Of a DNA stretch of 64,000 nucleotides, positions 3,185-13,966 are shown piece by piece (position 1 is the stretch's first letter; each line of letters begins with the position of its first letter). The stretch is from Bacteroidales bacterium. GTDB taxonomy: Bacteria > Bacteroidota > Bacteroidia > Bacteroidales > Paludibacteraceae. Under the pieces are notes generated by a model, which saw nothing but the letters and a program-made list of their open reading frames with translations, made no database searches and was not told where the DNA came from. A program made the position numbers and the translations under genes. Location of the stretch: positions 1 through 64,000 of the forward strand of contig JAAYSS010000047.1 of the NCBI GenBank assembly GCA_012518275.1, read 5' to 3'.

Positions 3185-5920
3185 ATGAGTTTAAGAACCG
3201 AATTAGAGAAAAGAATTTTGGTGCTCGACGGAGCAATGGGAACGATGATACAGCACCACAAGCTGGATGAAAAAGCATATCGTGGCAATCGGTTTGCGGA
3301 CGTGAAAATTCTGCAAAAAGGGAACAACGACTTGTTGGTACTTACACAGCCCGAAATTATTTACGACATTCATTGTCAATATCTTGAAGCCGGGGCAGAC
3401 ATTATCGAAACAAATACGTTTAATGCCCAGCGCATCTCGATGGATGATTACGGGATGAGCAATTTCGTTTATGAAATAAATCTTGAAGCTGCACGTTTAG
3501 CACGTAAAGCTGCAAATAAATTTACAGCAAAAAATCCTTCCAAGCCCCGTTTCGTAGCAGGTGCTGTGGGCCCGACCAACAAAACGGCGTCCATGTCGCC
3601 CGACGTGAATAATCCGGCTTTCCGAGCTGTGAGTTTCGATGACTTGGTGTCGGCATACAAAGAACAGATGGTTGCGTTGATTGAAGGTGGTGTTGACGCA
3701 TTGTTGATTGAAACCATTTTTGATACGCTAAATGCCAAAGCTGCTATTTTTGCAGCAGAAGAAGCAATGTCTGAAGTCGGTAAAAGAGTTGAATTAATGC
3801 TTTCCGTTACCGTTACGGACAAAAGCGGTCGGACGCTTTCAGGACAAACAATCGGTGCTTTTTTAACTTCGGTTTCACACGCAGAATTGCTCTCTATCGG
3901 CTTGAATTGTTCATTTGGAGCGAAAGACTTAAAGCCTTATTTGCAAGAAATTTCCAAGCACGTTCCTTATTTTGTAAGCGCTTATCCCAATGCCGGACTG
4001 CCCAATCAATTTGGTGAATACGATGAAACTGCCGAGAAAATGGCTTTGCAAGTAAAAGAGTATTTTGATGAAAAATTGGTTAATATCATCGGTGGATGCT
4101 GTGGAACAACGCCTGAGCACATAAAAGCGTATCAAAGGTTAATTGAAAATGCCGAAGTAAGGAAACCGGCAGAGAAAGATTTTAATTTGCATTTGAGTGG
4201 GTTGGAAGAGTTGGTAGTTCAACCGAATTCCCTTTTTATAAACATCGGCGAGCGCTGTAATGTAGCCGGATCGCGAAAGTTTCTTCGATTGATACAAGAA
4301 AAGAATTACGACGAGGCGCTGTCCGTGGCGCGACAGCAAGTAGAAGACGGGGCACAGGTTATCGATATCAATATGGATGATGCGATGCTGGACAGCAAGG
4401 CTGAAATGGTAACTTTCCTGAATTACTTGGCGTCTGAACCTGAAATTGCACGTGTGCCGATTATGCTCGACAGCTCAAAATGGGAGGTAATCGAAGCGGG
4501 TCTGAAATGCGTACAAGGAAAGTGTATCGTCAATTCCATCAGCCTGAAAGAAGGCGAAGAAGAGTTTTTGGCTCATGCACAACGAGTTAAACGCTATGGT
4601 GCTGCGGTAGTGGTGATGGCTTTTGACGAAAAAGGACAAGCTGATAGTTTCGAGAGAAAAATTGAAATTGCTGCGCGAGCTTATAAATTGCTGACTGAAA
4701 AAGTGAATTTCCCGCCACAGGATATTATCTTCGACCCCAATGTACTGGCGATTGCAACGGGAATTGAGGAGCATAATAATTACGGCGTTGATTTTATCCG
4801 CGCTACAAAATGGATTAAAGAAAACCTTCCGTACGCCAAAGTGAGTGGCGGTGTGAGCAACCTGTCGTTCTCTTTCCGCGGCAACAATCCGGTGCGTGAA
4901 GCGATTCATTCCGTGTTCTTGTATCACGCCATTCGCGCGGGAATGGATATGGGAATTGTTAATGCCGGGATGTTGCAGATTTACGAAGATATCCCTGCTG
5001 ATATGCTTCAGTACGTGGAGGATATCGTGCTCAATCGTCGTTCGGATGCAACGGAACGGATGATTGACTTTGCAGAAAAGATAAAGGCTGAAAAGTTGGA
5101 AGAAAAAACCGAGCATGTAGATGCTTGGCGTTCCGATCCGTTGGATAAACGATTGGAATATGCCCTGTTAAAAGGGATAAGCGATTACTTGGAAGAAGAC
5201 ATTGCGGAAGCTTTGCAAGTTTATCCTTCGGCGATTGATATCATCGAAAAGCCGTTGATGAACGGGATGAACTTGGTCGGCGATTTGTTTGGTGCAGGCA
5301 AAATGTTTCTTCCACAAGTGGTGAAAACCGCTCGCACGATGAAAAAGGCGGTTGCCATCCTTCAGCCCGAAATAGAAAAAACGAAAGCAAGCGGCGCCGG
5401 TTCGTCTGCCGGAAAATACCTTTTTGCTACGGTAAAAGGCGATGTACACGATATCGGGAAGAACATTTGCGGAGTTATTCTTGCTTGCAACAACTTTGAA
5501 GTCATTGACTTAGGAGTGATGACCCCAACCGAAAAAATCATTCAAACTGCCATTGATGAAAAAGTAGATATCGTAGGCGTGAGCGGACTTATAACGCCTT
5601 CTCTCGAAGAAATGTGCAACGTAGCGAAAGCGATGGAAAAAGCAGGATTGAACATTCCGCTGATGGTTGGCGGCGCCACTACATCCAAAATTCATACAGC
5701 CGTAAAAATAGCCCCCAACTACACCAATGGATTTGTAGTTCACACCAAAGATGCGTCACAGAATGTGGCGGTAGCTCTGCAACTGATGAATAAAACCGCA
5801 AAGGCAGAATTGGTGGAACAAACCCGTTCAGAATATCAGGCTTTGCGGGAAAAGCAAGTGCCGAGACAAGATTTACTTTCACTGGAAGAAGCAAGAAAAA
5901 GGAAGCCAAAGCTATTTTGA
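3185..5920 (+). CDS. metH: Cobalamin-dependent methionine synthase without the C-terminal AdoMet activation domain
   Basis: Hcy-binding domain ([23 protein letters not shown]), pterin-binding domain ([14 protein letters not shown]), B12-binding DVHDIGKNI...[13 protein letters not shown]. Ends at the linker after the cobalamin domain. Start placed at the ATG rather than the upstream TTG. Confidence 0.95.
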
Positions 5921-5953
5921 CAGCATGCGTATTGTAATTCTTCTTATTGAAAC

Positions 5954-5997
5954 TGTAGTGTCGACTTGATGAAACAATAATTCCAACTTGATGAAAC
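5954..5997. repeat. Two direct copies of (c/g)-acttgatgaaac spaced 22 bp; possible IS-end remnant
   Basis: cgacttgatgaaac (5962-5975) and caacttgatgaaac (5984-5997). Confidence 0.4.
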
Positions 5998-6129
5998 TAA
6001 ATCGCCATCAATTCTGCTTACTCGTTACTTTTCGTTATACCAGATATACTGTTCCGTAAATTCATCAAACAGCTGAAAGTCAGTAGGAAGTGAGGCTGAT
6101 GAATAGTTAATTTTCACGGTATGAAAGTG

Positions 6130-9448: not shown

Positions 9449-10027
9449 TTAGAAGTTCGTTTTCATTTCTTCAAAATAGGCTTGTAGGTGTGCGCATGTA
9501 GGACAAGCTTTTGGTGCTTCTTTTCCGTAATGAATATGTCCACATACGCGGCATTGCCAGTAAATATCTTCTTCGCGAGAGAAAACGGTACCTTCTTCCA
9601 CCCGTTTTTGTAGTTTGCGGTAGCGCTCTTCGTGCCCTTTTTCGGCAGCTGCAATTTTTCTCCATGTAGCTGCAATGTTTGCAAATCCTTCCTTTTCGGC
9701 AACATCAGCAAAATGTGGATAAAGCTCAGCCCACTCTTCATTTTCGCCGTCAGCAGCAGCTTTCAGGTTTTCAGCAGTAGTGCCTTCCACGCCGGCAGGA
9801 TACATGGCAGTGATTTCTACCATTCCGCCTTCCAAATAACGGAAGAATTTTTTCGCGTGCATATATTCTTGATCAGCAGTTTCAAGAAAAATAGCTGCAA
9901 TTTGTTCGTATCCTTCTTTTTTAGCAATTGCTGCAAACATATTGTAGCGGTTACGTGCTTGGCTTTCACCAGCAAATGATTTTAGCAGATTTTGCTCAGT
10001 CTGAGTTCCTTTTAAACTTTTCTTCAT
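9449..10027 (-). CDS. rbr: Rubrerythrin
   Basis: Ferritin-like EARNRYNMFA...EYMHAKKF...EKGHEERY plus rubredoxin-like CRVCGHIHYGKEAPKACPTC. Confidence 0.95.
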   Translation of the reverse strand: MKKSLKGTQTEQNLLKSFAGESQARNRYNMFAAIAKKEGYEQIAAIFLETADQEYMHAKKFFRYLEGGMVEITAMYPAGVEGTTAENLKAAADGENEEWAELYPHFADVAEKEGFANIAATWRKIAAAEKGHEERYRKLQKRVEEGTVFSREEDIYWQCRVCGHIHYGKEAPKACPTCAHLQAYFEEMKTNF

Positions 10028-10220: not shown

Positions 10221-12140
10221 TTAATTCAGCGCTATTTTAATGCCGGCGTTGATGTTAATTTTTGGTTGTTTGATTCCGCCAAACTCAACGTATTCTTGGT
10301 TCAAAATATTATTTGCTTCTGTGAATAAAGTCATCTGATTACCTTTCCAGATTAATTTCGAATTTAGCATCCAGTAGGGGCTGTAATCGGTCAATTCATT
10401 GTTTGTAAAATCGGTGTAATTTCCCGCACGGTCAAACATTGCCAAGTTCCAGTGCATCGAAAGCTTTGACCAAATGGAATGATTTAAATTAAACACTAAT
10501 TTATGTTTCAGGTAGTCGAGCGCATATTTACTGTCGTAACCTTCCGCCTTTTTATCCAGATTTAAAAATGAATAATTCGCACCGATTGATTGAATAAAAC
10601 TGTTAGTGAAGCGATACTCGCCACTCGTTTCAAATCCGACAGCATTCACGTTGGTTAAATTACGGCTTTCCCACTTTTCGGCATCGGGCATTTTTACCCA
10701 GTCAATGATGTTGTTCCCAAGACGATAAAAAGCAGAAGCCGTTAATGTCCAGCTTATCGGGTTGATTTTGGTGCCAAGCTCAAAAGTAGTCGATTTTTCG
10801 GGTTGCAAGTTCGGATTACTTATTTGCACTGCGCTTTGGTAGTATAAATCGGTGAATGTCGGCAGACGAACAGCCGAATTGGCAGCTACAAAAATACGTG
10901 AGTACGCTGTTGGTCGGTATGCTAAATCTGCACCGCCGTTCACGTGTGTGCCAAATTGTTTGTTTTGAGTAAGTGCTGCGCCGACAGAAGCGTACCATTT
11001 TCCAAGCACCAAGCTGTGATCCAAGAACACGGTTGAAAGCAGCCTGTTTGCTTCCTTAGTAAATGTTTTGTCTTCTTCAAAAGGAATTTTCTTAGATTTT
11101 GTGATATCTTCTCCCAGCACAGTACTGAAAATATGTTCGTTGCGCACGTCAAGCCCAAGCGTAGTTTTCCCAAATTTCCAAGAAAGAGAAGTGCCTAATT
11201 TTCCACCCGTAATATCGGTCTGATGGTAGTTGTGGTCGGTGTACCAAGAGATTTTTTCTGCTCCTTCGAAATTCCTGAAAAGTTCAAAGCGATCGTGATG
11301 ACGCCGCCAGTAAGCCTGCGAATTAAAACTCCAACTGCCTGATTTTAAGTTCCAATCTAGTGCCGAGAACATGGTTTTAGTGTGTTCAAATTGATTGGGG
11401 AATTTTTCGCTGTAAAAGCTGTTGGCTCCAAATGATTTCTGCTGATAAGCCATTTGCAGACTAAATTTACCAGCTTTCTCTGTTCTTAGGCTATTTTGAA
11501 GATACGCGCTGGCAATAGTAAAATCAGTGTTGTCAATGTACCCATCGCTTCTTTTGTGTGAAACAGAACCAAATGTGCTGATTTTTTCATCGGAATAATT
11601 CCCGGAAATAATATTTGAAAGGTACCCGTAACTTCCGGCAGAAGTCTGAATTGAAACGTTTTTTTCTTCTTTTTCATCGGTAATAATATTAATGGCGCCA
11701 CTGAAAGCGTTGGGCCCAAGGACACGTGCAGCAGAACCTTGCAAAATTTCCACGCGGCTTACATCAGCTAAATCGATCGGAATATCTAAATTGTAGTGTC
11801 CTGTCTGCGGATCGGTAATGTTCACACCATTTAAAAGCACCAAAATCTGATCAAAAGAGCCACCACGGATGCTTACATCTGACTGCACGCCATACATTCC
11901 GCGCTGCCGAACATCAACACCTGCAACGTAGTCCAACAAATCATCGATGCTTCTTACCGCATTTTTTTCGATTTCAAGCTTATCAATCACGCCGATAATT
12001 CGCCCGAGATTTGAGTACATTTTTGTTCGCCCGGCACTTACTTCCAATTCATTAAGTTCTACATCTTCTGTTGGAACTTCAGCTTTTAAACTTGCCAAAA
12101 CACAGATGGCAATTGTCAGAAAATAGATTTTTAGTTTCAT
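10221..12140 (-). CDS. TonB-dependent outer membrane receptor, BtuB-like
   Basis: Signal peptide; plug domain (VDVRQRGMYGVQSDVSIRGGSFDQILVLLNGVNITDPQTGHYNLDIP, VEILQGSAARVLGPNAFSGAINIIT); C-terminal beta-barrel. Confidence 0.92.
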   Translation of the reverse strand: MKLKIYFLTIAICVLASLKAEVPTEDVELNELEVSAGRTKMYSNLGRIIGVIDKLEIEKNAVRSIDDLLDYVAGVDVRQRGMYGVQSDVSIRGGSFDQILVLLNGVNITDPQTGHYNLDIPIDLADVSRVEILQGSAARVLGPNAFSGAINIITDEKEEKNVSIQTSAGSYGYLSNIISGNYSDEKISTFGSVSHKRSDGYIDNTDFTIASAYLQNSLRTEKAGKFSLQMAYQQKSFGANSFYSEKFPNQFEHTKTMFSALDWNLKSGSWSFNSQAYWRRHHDRFELFRNFEGAEKISWYTDHNYHQTDITGGKLGTSLSWKFGKTTLGLDVRNEHIFSTVLGEDITKSKKIPFEEDKTFTKEANRLLSTVFLDHSLVLGKWYASVGAALTQNKQFGTHVNGGADLAYRPTAYSRIFVAANSAVRLPTFTDLYYQSAVQISNPNLQPEKSTTFELGTKINPISWTLTASAFYRLGNNIIDWVKMPDAEKWESRNLTNVNAVGFETSGEYRFTNSFIQSIGANYSFLNLDKKAEGYDSKYALDYLKHKLVFNLNHSIWSKLSMHWNLAMFDRAGNYTDFTNNELTDYSPYWMLNSKLIWKGNQMTLFTEANNILNQEYVEFGGIKQPKININAGIKIALN

Positions 12141-12144
12141 TTTT

Positions 12145-12507
12145 TTAAATAAAAAAAGTTGGAATAGAGATTTTTCTCCACTCCAACTTCGGATTAATAA
12201 ATAATATTTGATTTAAGCCACCAACAGGAATGTCAGTAGCAAAAGTTTGTATGTTTATCTGTAATAAATTCTCAAAAAGAAGTACCTCCGATTCATCTTC
12301 CTCCTTTTTATTTTTAAGTGAATCTTTAGCGAAAATATTGTTTTCAACCGAAAACGAATTCGTTTTTAAAATCGCCATATCGCTGATACCTGCACTTACT
12401 TGTCCAATTGAAATAACTTTATTCAATCCAGCAAATACAGCATAATTTTTCCGGCTCCAACGACGGAATCGAAAGCTTTTGGCGGGCTGTAGGCTGTTTT
12501 TTCTCAC
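12145..12507 (-). CDS. Small Arg-rich hypothetical protein (GTG start) between a DUF6242 lipoprotein gene and a TonB receptor gene
   Basis: ORF starts 7 nt after the upstream gene and ends 4 nt before the TonB receptor ATG; N-terminus AKSFRFRRWSRKNYAVFAGLNKVISIGQVSAGISDMAI. Confidence 0.6.
   Translation of the reverse strand: MRKNSLQPAKSFRFRRWSRKNYAVFAGLNKVISIGQVSAGISDMAILKTNSFSVENNIFAKDSLKNKKEEDESEVLLFENLLQINIQTFATDIPVGGLNQILFINPKLEWRKISIPTFFI
12148..12189 (-). terminator. Intrinsic terminator/attenuator hairpin directly upstream of the TonB receptor gene
   Basis: - strand AAGTTGGAGTGGAGA-AAAA-TCTCTATTCCAACTT-TTTTT: 15-bp stem (two G-T wobbles), AAAA loop, T-tract. No T-tract on the + strand, so directional. 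Confidence 0.75.
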
Positions 12508-12514
12508 AATTCAA

Positions 12515-13924
12515 TTAATATTTGTAAGGATTTTCGATGTAATCTTTGAAACTATAAAAATTCACTTTTATTTTCCACACGTCTGCCAACGGTGCGGTTA
12601 CTGATTTACCGCCGATAACGTATAGGCTGTTGTCTTTCGCGTCCATTATCAACGAAGCATTCACACGTGGGGTAAATTTTTCAGGAAGTACGTTTGTGGT
12701 TGAATCCGGCAAAACCCAGTTCATGCCTTCGTTTATCGACTGTCTTAGCTGAGTCGTGTCAATTGTATGAGTGTCCGTAGTACCACCGAGCATCAGCAGT
12801 TTACTACCATAATATTCTACAGATGCATTAGAAACAGGGTCTATTTTGCTGTTCGCATTTTGAAGGTCCAACCAGTTCAACGTATCGGAAATTGCCCGAT
12901 TTTCGGCAGACCAGATGGTGTTTAGTCTTTTTCCAGAAGGGGAATATCCGCCAATAACAATTGTTTTTTCTCTTCCAAGTTTTGGGCGGAAAGTCGTTGT
13001 TGCAAAATCAGAAACAGGGAAATTATCGTTGAAAATTTTATTTCCGGACAGCGTCCAGTTGATTCCGTCAGCAGAGTTAGCAATGCGGACATTATTGCTG
13101 GTTTTCTCTTTGGCTACTGCCCAAAGATTATTTTTGAAACCAAATAAAAGCGAAACGTAGTCGTAGGCTGTATCTGCCACTATATTATGTTTCGTCCAGA
13201 AGACTCCATTTGTTGATTTGTAGAGCTCCACACCGTTGTGAAGAAGATAAATTGCATTATTGAATACCACCATATCTCTTAGTTTGGCATTTAGCGGAAG
13301 TCCGTCAAGCCTAGCATCATTCTGCCAATTTTTAGCGTCAAGCGAAGTAAAGAGAGAATTGGAATCGGCATGCCCAAAATAGTAGAAAAATTTACCGTTT
13401 AGTTGTACCGCCTTCTGATTGTCAGAAATTTGAGCCGTGATATTTGAGTTTAGTTCACTCCAAACATGCTTGTAGGGTTCCACCTTGTGAACGCGAAGCT
13501 CTATCACATATTCTTTTGTTGTTTCTTCGTCGGTAGCCAAGTTTTTGATTTTCACAGGATTGGTAAAATCAACGTGTTTGGTTGTAGATCCTTGGGTAGT
13601 GTTGTAAAAACCCGGAGACTCGGATACTGTATCGTTGATGATAAAGCCAATTGAACTAGCAAAACGGAAATTCAAAAAAAGACTATCTATTTTGGTACCA
13701 TATGGAAGTGAGTCTAAGTTATATATTGAGTCGCTAACATTGTCTATAGTAAACTCCGCTAATGATGCGTTTGGCGAATAAGATGAGTTTTGGATAGCTA
13801 CATGCAACACAGAAGCATCACTGGAAGGTTGAGCCAGCTGAGTGCCGGAATCTTTAAGACAACTCGTTGCAAAAAACGCTATCAACGATAGCAGAAACAA
13901 ATTATTATGATGTAAATACTTCAT
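12515..13924 (-). CDS. DUF6242-like lipoprotein with Kelch/propeller-like repeats
   Basis: Lipobox FFATSCLKD; N-terminal pattern VSDSIYNLDSLPYGTKIDSLFLNF...TTKEYVIELRVHKVEPYKHVWSEL; repeated SxDGINWTL / STNGVFWTKH modules. Confidence 0.75.
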   Translation of the reverse strand: MKYLHHNNLFLLSLIAFFATSCLKDSGTQLAQPSSDASVLHVAIQNSSYSPNASLAEFTIDNVSDSIYNLDSLPYGTKIDSLFLNFRFASSIGFIINDTVSESPGFYNTTQGSTTKHVDFTNPVKIKNLATDEETTKEYVIELRVHKVEPYKHVWSELNSNITAQISDNQKAVQLNGKFFYYFGHADSNSLFTSLDAKNWQNDARLDGLPLNAKLRDMVVFNNAIYLLHNGVELYKSTNGVFWTKHNIVADTAYDYVSLLFGFKNNLWAVAKEKTSNNVRIANSADGINWTLSGNKIFNDNFPVSDFATTTFRPKLGREKTIVIGGYSPSGKRLNTIWSAENRAISDTLNWLDLQNANSKIDPVSNASVEYYGSKLLMLGGTTDTHTIDTTQLRQSINEGMNWVLPDSTTNVLPEKFTPRVNASLIMDAKDNSLYVIGGKSVTAPLADVWKIKVNFYSFKDYIENPYKY

Positions 13925-13958: not shown

Positions 13959-13966
13959 CAAAGTTA
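13959..13966 (-). promoter_or_regulatory. Bacteroidetes -7 box (TAACTTTG) upstream of the DUF6242 lipoprotein gene
   Basis: - strand TTTG-N21-TAACTTTG, near the TTTG/TAnnTTTG consensus. Confidence 0.5.

Follow-up and report, generated by a model that had tools for sequence, protein, structure and literature searches.

The stretch of DNA analysed here, which we call the window, comprises 64,000 nucleotides of a Bacteroidales genome from the family Paludibacteraceae (contig JAAYSS010000047.1). On its minus strand lies a gene for a BtuB-like TonB-dependent receptor of 639 amino acids with its own signal peptide (10221-12140). Immediately upstream is a small ORF of 120 amino acids with a GTG start (12145-12507), delimited from the sequence and from homologues in relatives, whose stop falls 4 nt ahead of the receptor ATG at 12140, exactly where a sequence-only reading of the window had placed it. 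The start of this ORF, hereafter the leader, lies 7 nt past the stop of a DUF6242/BamI-like gene (12515-13924). The leader holds a conserved peptide core at residues 13-48 (RFRRWSRKNYAVFAGLNKVISIG...ISDMAILK; 12364-12471), recognised by codon analysis, dN/dS and gene context, followed by an apparently translated tail (12148-12363) of weakly constrained sequence whose frame stays open to a hairpin. The hairpin itself, an intrinsic terminator by its fold and its recurrence in relatives, has 16 bp and sits within the last leader codons (12155-12190).

The promoter box TAnnTTTG is enriched across the window (108 matches against 78.8 expected, a count that none of 100 shuffles reaches), which agrees with Bacteroidota promoters. 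On the minus strand none lies between the hairpin and the receptor, as the sequence-only reading had stated, and the nearest upstream is at 13959-13966, ahead of the DUF6242/BamI-like gene. Since no box separates this gene from the leader, the two are probably co-transcribed. The DUF6242 protein has Kelch-like repeats and matches the NCBIfam model BamI_Bacteroidota with 213 bits, below the cut-off of 370, and its place upstream of the leader looks kept across the window's genus. Throughout this genus the leader sits close behind another gene, and GTG or TTG starts are used in several species. Downstream of the receptor is a gene (9449-10027, minus strand) that we judged by eye to be rubrerythrin-like.

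The terminator at the end of the leader is strong by several measures. The 81-nt segment that contains the hairpin folds with -24.1 kcal/mol (z -6.2; 0 of 200 shuffles equally stable), and no other site across the surrounding 12 kb is as terminator-like. The 15-bp stem with two G-T wobbles described from the letters is real and lies inside the 16-bp hairpin, which has a 4-nt loop and runs from 12190 to 12155. The accompanying run of seven T is also real (12157-12151), but it does not lie wholly 3' of the stem as had been claimed: it overlaps the stem, its first three T being paired, so that four to five T follow directly and then ATTT.

Homologues of the leader were found in 32 of 61 relatives, and at the loci that were read they stand just 5' of the receptor gene, fused to it, or ahead of bio genes. 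Leaders in the family have about 100-140 codons, with an N-terminal core of the form RFRRWSRKxYAxFxSLxxxVxIG, then IxDxxLxK. A profile of this core matches 107 of 247 Bacteroidales genomes, many of the sampled genomes being metagenome assemblies, and gives almost no matches in the rest of the phylum, so that the motif is nearly confined to Bacteroidales; a weak match in another class (L139) looks spurious. Named genome records with the motif belong to Barnesiella, Coprobacter, Parabacteroides, Tannerella, Bacteroides and Mediterranea. The start of the ORF is nearly fixed relative to the core: when 9 to 16 codons before the core phenylalanine were searched, an ATG, GTG or TTG was present 11-15 codons before it at 84 of 88 loci (79 of them at 12 to 14), with TTG or GTG replacing ATG at some. 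Furthermore, a search within 25 nt of the start finds a TAnnTTTG box at 20 of 84 motif loci, usually 4 to 9 nt upstream of the start, and at 6 of 318 other genes; because the box is so close, several leaders probably begin the transcript, which would start at or near the leader start in those 20 loci.

The window leader matches no Pfam or NCBIfam family, including DUF2946 when Pfam was searched up to E = 10, and Rfam covariance models give no match to the leader in the window or in eight related loci. Recognised stall motifs (RAPP, poly-Pro) are absent from it, as is any cysteine, and neither a CXXC nor a RAPP motif is conserved across the family. AlphaFold2 returns no confident fold (pLDDT 63, pTM 0.26); this fits an element that acts as a nascent chain, although it proves nothing. 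The family thus appears previously unrecognised and looks like one that works in the manner of leader-peptide attenuators such as TnaC and CruR.

Codon usage and substitution patterns bear on what is selected in the leader. At conserved core residues the third codon positions are close to random: all four codons occur at the near-invariant Gly35, both serine codon families at Ser27, and all six codons for Arg and for Leu. In close pairs the core has a dN/dS of 0.02-0.16 (0.33 in one near-identical pair; 0.16 for the window against its closest relative), and the tail 0.24-0.69. The tail sequence drifts between loci and is barely conserved, and yet its frame holds 0 stops in 3230 codons and is open to the hairpin in 55 of 55 loci, compared with 167 and 240 stops in the other two frames. 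A conserved core together with a poorly conserved tail in an open frame shows that the core is selected as a peptide, not as RNA, and that the tail is selected mainly for being translated. Indirectly, the purifying selection on the core, the open tail frame and the near-fixed start position all indicate that the leader ORF is translated.

The hairpin recurs together with the ORF. Counting as a terminator any hairpin at the leader end that has a U tract and folds at -10 kcal/mol or below, we found one in 37 of 42 leaders, compared with 3 of 85 same-strand junctions between longer ORFs at the same loci; at -14 kcal/mol the counts are 35 of 42 and 0 of 85 (Fisher p 1e-24). Homologues that keep the ORF without the hairpin, a pattern that would have spoken against the sequence-only reading, are accordingly the minority, a detectable terminator being missing in 5 of the 42. 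The ORF, the position of the hairpin and the receptor are kept together in relatives; the spacing of 4 nt is not, and varies from about -4 to +71 nt. The hairpin sequences diverge widely among loci and are present on receptor-type and bio-type leaders alike. As covariation in the hairpins of the five closest relatives, in an alignment of five rows only, does not go beyond shuffles, the conservation of the hairpin rests on its recurrence in place and not on covariation. In 51 of 56 cases the translated part of the leader extends into the hairpin. Upstream pairing with the 5' arm of the terminator, as an antiterminator would require, is no better than in shuffles (z -0.1, p 0.79), and the simplest switch is therefore the ribosome itself. 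The open frame and the lack of antiterminator pairing are what direct melting by the ribosome predicts and support the proposal, made from the letters, that a ribosome completing the leader would melt the terminator ahead of the receptor.

The sequence-only reading contained neither the conserved peptide core nor the connection of this core with biotin genes. Among 102 distinct motif loci, 101 head either the receptor family or the first biotin gene (bioB or bioA), the remaining one being a weak unexplained match. The receptor loci comprise 37 in-frame fusions, with the core directly before the signal peptide in those read, and 23 separate leaders; the biotin loci comprise 28 leaders of bioB, 10 leaders of bioA and 3 fusions to BioB. 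In genomes from other families than the window's, separate leaders almost always stand ahead of bioB or bioA, the operons being of the bioB-A-F-G-C-D type. The two kinds of target also occur side by side: in G122 a leader is followed by bioB, then by a gene for a symporter-like membrane protein and one for a core-fused receptor, and in G039 a BioB gene begins 75 nt past a core-fused receptor. By eye, the membrane protein of the former locus (L131, 1413-2865 nt past the leader core) resembles sodium:solute symporters and is a candidate inner-membrane biotin transporter.

Several loci show further arrangements of the same parts. The fusions of the core to BioB are found in L123 (G253), L196/L136 (G094) and L153 (a Mediterranea MAG), the one in G094 being to a BioB-BioA fusion protein of 803 amino acids; in L090 (G239) a separate leader stands ahead of such a BioB-BioA fusion. 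L124 (G046, about 3600-6000) is a tandem, in which a separate leader with its own terminator is followed by a receptor that is also core-fused. In L122 (G233, about 3100) the leader is decayed and interrupted by an in-frame TGA; no bio genes can be recognised in its neighbourhood, and it looks like the relic of a lost biotin operon.

The association is not universal. The core is found, at the threshold used, in 33 of 55 bioB-bearing Bacteroidales genomes, and since the other 22 are without it, the switch is not common to all of them. A hairpin comparable to those at leader ends is absent from the start of nine BioB genes for which no leader was detected; in three of the nine one lies 300 to 440 nt upstream. 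Within the window's family, a search of 37 genomes finds no bioB above the cut-off, and in the genome that contains the window, which is about 90% complete, bioB has no match. As far as this absence holds in largely draft genomes, the leader would remain in this family on the receptor alone, as expected of a biotin scavenger.

The identity of the receptor is approached mainly through this context. Its closest PDB relatives by sequence are BtuB structures, which are B12 receptors, and against the equivalog TIGR01779 (BtuB-type B12 receptor) it scores 115 bits and does not pass the cut-off of 599.7. Because it shares its leader with bio genes and its gene clusters with bioB, we regard it as a candidate outer-membrane importer of biotin or of a biotin precursor.

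What is understood of biotin regulation comes mainly from DNA-binding repressors, BirA among them. Control of the E. coli type needs a biotin ligase with an N-terminal HTH (PMC4016012), and a study that treated the micronutrient regulons of gut bacteria relied on BirA and BioQ where biotin was concerned (PMC6593275). The ligase of the window's genome has the BPL domain only, without an N-terminal HTH. In other ligases that were read the catalytic G-rich motif lies within about 70 residues of the frame start, too near the N-terminus for an HTH, and in one it follows an apparent read-through; across the 13 genomes read, the window's included, the ligases have either no N-terminal HTH or no room for one. 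BirA, a group II biotin ligase, joins biotin synthesis and transport genes in one regulon, as the leader would do, and is a DNA-binding repressor (PMC4016012), whereas the examined Bacteroidales ligases are without that domain, which leaves the regulator's place vacant.

Based on these observations, we think it probable that the small ORF encodes a leader peptide which acts in cis within a biotin regulon, that the hairpin is its transcription terminator, and that the two form a translated attenuator in which the ribosome would halt at the core, presumably when biotin is sufficient. In this model the leader would be translated right behind RNA polymerase, as the selection on core and frame supports. 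A ribosome that reaches the leader end would cover and melt the hairpin, as suggested by the hairpin position and the open frame, so that polymerase proceeds into the receptor gene or into bioB or bioA, where the next gene is started nearby. We infer that a ribosome halted on the N-terminal core, at a median of about 290 nt before the hairpin, would instead let the hairpin form and transcription end. Because the controlled genes supply biotin, the halt is expected when biotin is sufficient; gene context points to biotin as the signal, and the nascent core may be acted on by biotin, biotinyl-5'-AMP or the biotin ligase, within the exit tunnel or close to it. Action on the nascent chain is favoured because the ribosome and its exit tunnel are what an enzyme of the cytosol, the precursor of an outer-membrane protein and a free leader have in common.

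Terminator melting cannot explain everything, since most direct fusions have no convincing terminator, and most candidate hairpins in them look like chance. In a core-fused receptor or BioB, such a halt would stop synthesis of the main protein, and no terminator would be needed. Two receptor fusions, L130 (G255) and L137 (G547, of another order), still have leader and terminator in place, with a strong hairpin and a clean U tract about 290 nt past the core; the leader stop is lost, and the open frame continues across the terminator as far as the receptor, which it joins. More tentatively, and with rather less than even confidence, we propose that the nascent core is itself the biotin sensor, a new class of metabolite-responsive arrest peptide and the missing biotin regulator of Bacteroidales, which would work across compartments in two formats, as leader plus terminator and as N-terminal extension.

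Other explanations deserve to be weighed against this model. The ESPR of autotransporters is a conserved, charged and aromatic N-terminal extension before the signal peptide, and the 37 in-frame receptor fusions, with the core directly ahead of the signal peptide in those read, invite the view that the core is a region of this kind which tunes receptor export, the separate leaders being decayed copies. We had favoured an extended signal peptide from the receptor fusions and dropped it given the leaders of bio operons and the BioB fusions: unlike an ESPR, the core also heads cytosolic BioB in three fusions and stands as a separate ORF before bioB or bioA in 38 loci, and separate leaders are under strong purifying selection, so that we rate this explanation as very improbable. 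We give equally little credence to an element that works as RNA, as a riboswitch or protein-binding site, with the ORF incidental. A position in the 5' region of vitamin genes would suit a riboswitch, although we know of none for biotin; the random third positions at conserved residues, the frame held open to the hairpin, the lack of an Rfam match and the retention of the same peptide in protein fusions all speak against it. Least credible of all is a -1 frameshift at the T7 run that would join the small ORF and the receptor into one extended protein. The receptor frame is open for 24 codons upstream in the window, T TTT TTT could slip, and true in-frame fusions exist elsewhere; but three close relatives (G006, G004 and G003) have a receptor frame that is not open before the leader stop, so that a slipping ribosome would meet a stop there, and these frames led us to discard the idea.

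It is improbable, to a lesser degree, that the small ORF is an ordinary small-protein gene, the hairpin being its terminator and the receptor having its own promoter. The core is indeed a conserved peptide, and strong terminators normally end transcripts. At about 15 nt in the window, and about 25 nt as the median over other loci, the gap between hairpin and receptor ATG is however too short for a promoter and contains no TAnnTTTG box, and a barely conserved tail, the lack of a confident fold and the fusion of the core to proteins of different compartments do not suit such a gene. The alternative that we take most seriously, while holding it unlikely, accepts the leader and the attenuator and replaces biotin by another signal, such as S-adenosylmethionine, a pimeloyl intermediate or the general translation state. 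Arrest peptides can sense proteins or antibiotics, which leaves room for it; but the core heads only biotin synthesis genes and a receptor that clusters with bioB, and the window's family, in which bioB was not detected, retains the leader on the receptor alone.

A biotin-responsive attenuator, the reading we prefer, would have several consequences. The open-access literature yielded no description of a biotin leader or arrest peptide in Bacteroidetes and no described biotin regulator for Bacteroidales, and a survey of Sec/YidC arrest peptides reports other Bacteroidota uORF clusters, upstream of secDF, without mention of biotin (PMC10987492). A leader common to biotin operons and one TonB receptor would fill this regulator gap in Bacteroidales, which are major gut bacteria, and would name a candidate outer-membrane biotin importer. 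A vitamin would also join the short list of small molecules possibly sensed by a nascent peptide. Importantly, as the 36-residue core occurs naturally fused to two unrelated proteins, the idea of a nascent chain acting in cis can be tested directly.

Among known systems, the trp and his attenuators likewise place a translated leader and then an intrinsic terminator before biosynthetic genes. The leaders described here differ from them in having about 100-140 codons, no regulatory codon run, no antiterminator pairing and a conserved peptide core. Arrest of TnaC switches tna on when tryptophan is present, via Rho, whereas the halt on the window leader is predicted to turn genes off, by way of an intrinsic terminator that lies about 290 nt downstream. 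The likeness to TnaC-type leaders lies in a short leader peptide that, while still nascent, responds to a small metabolite and determines expression downstream (PMC8429421), although here such a response is deduced from the genes controlled. The closest mechanistic relative, by analogy, appears to be CruR (DUF2946), a copper-sensing uORF upstream of the TonB-dependent transporter gene bfrG in Bordetella pertussis (PMC9426467). Translation of this uORF yields a nascent chain that senses a nutrient and governs transcription termination ahead of a TonB-receptor gene (PMC9426467), as the leader of the window would do. The means are different: CruR relies on CXXC, a C-terminal RAPP, copper and Rho, whereas the leader described here, without cysteine or RAPP and outside DUF2946, combines an N-terminal core with an intrinsic terminator.
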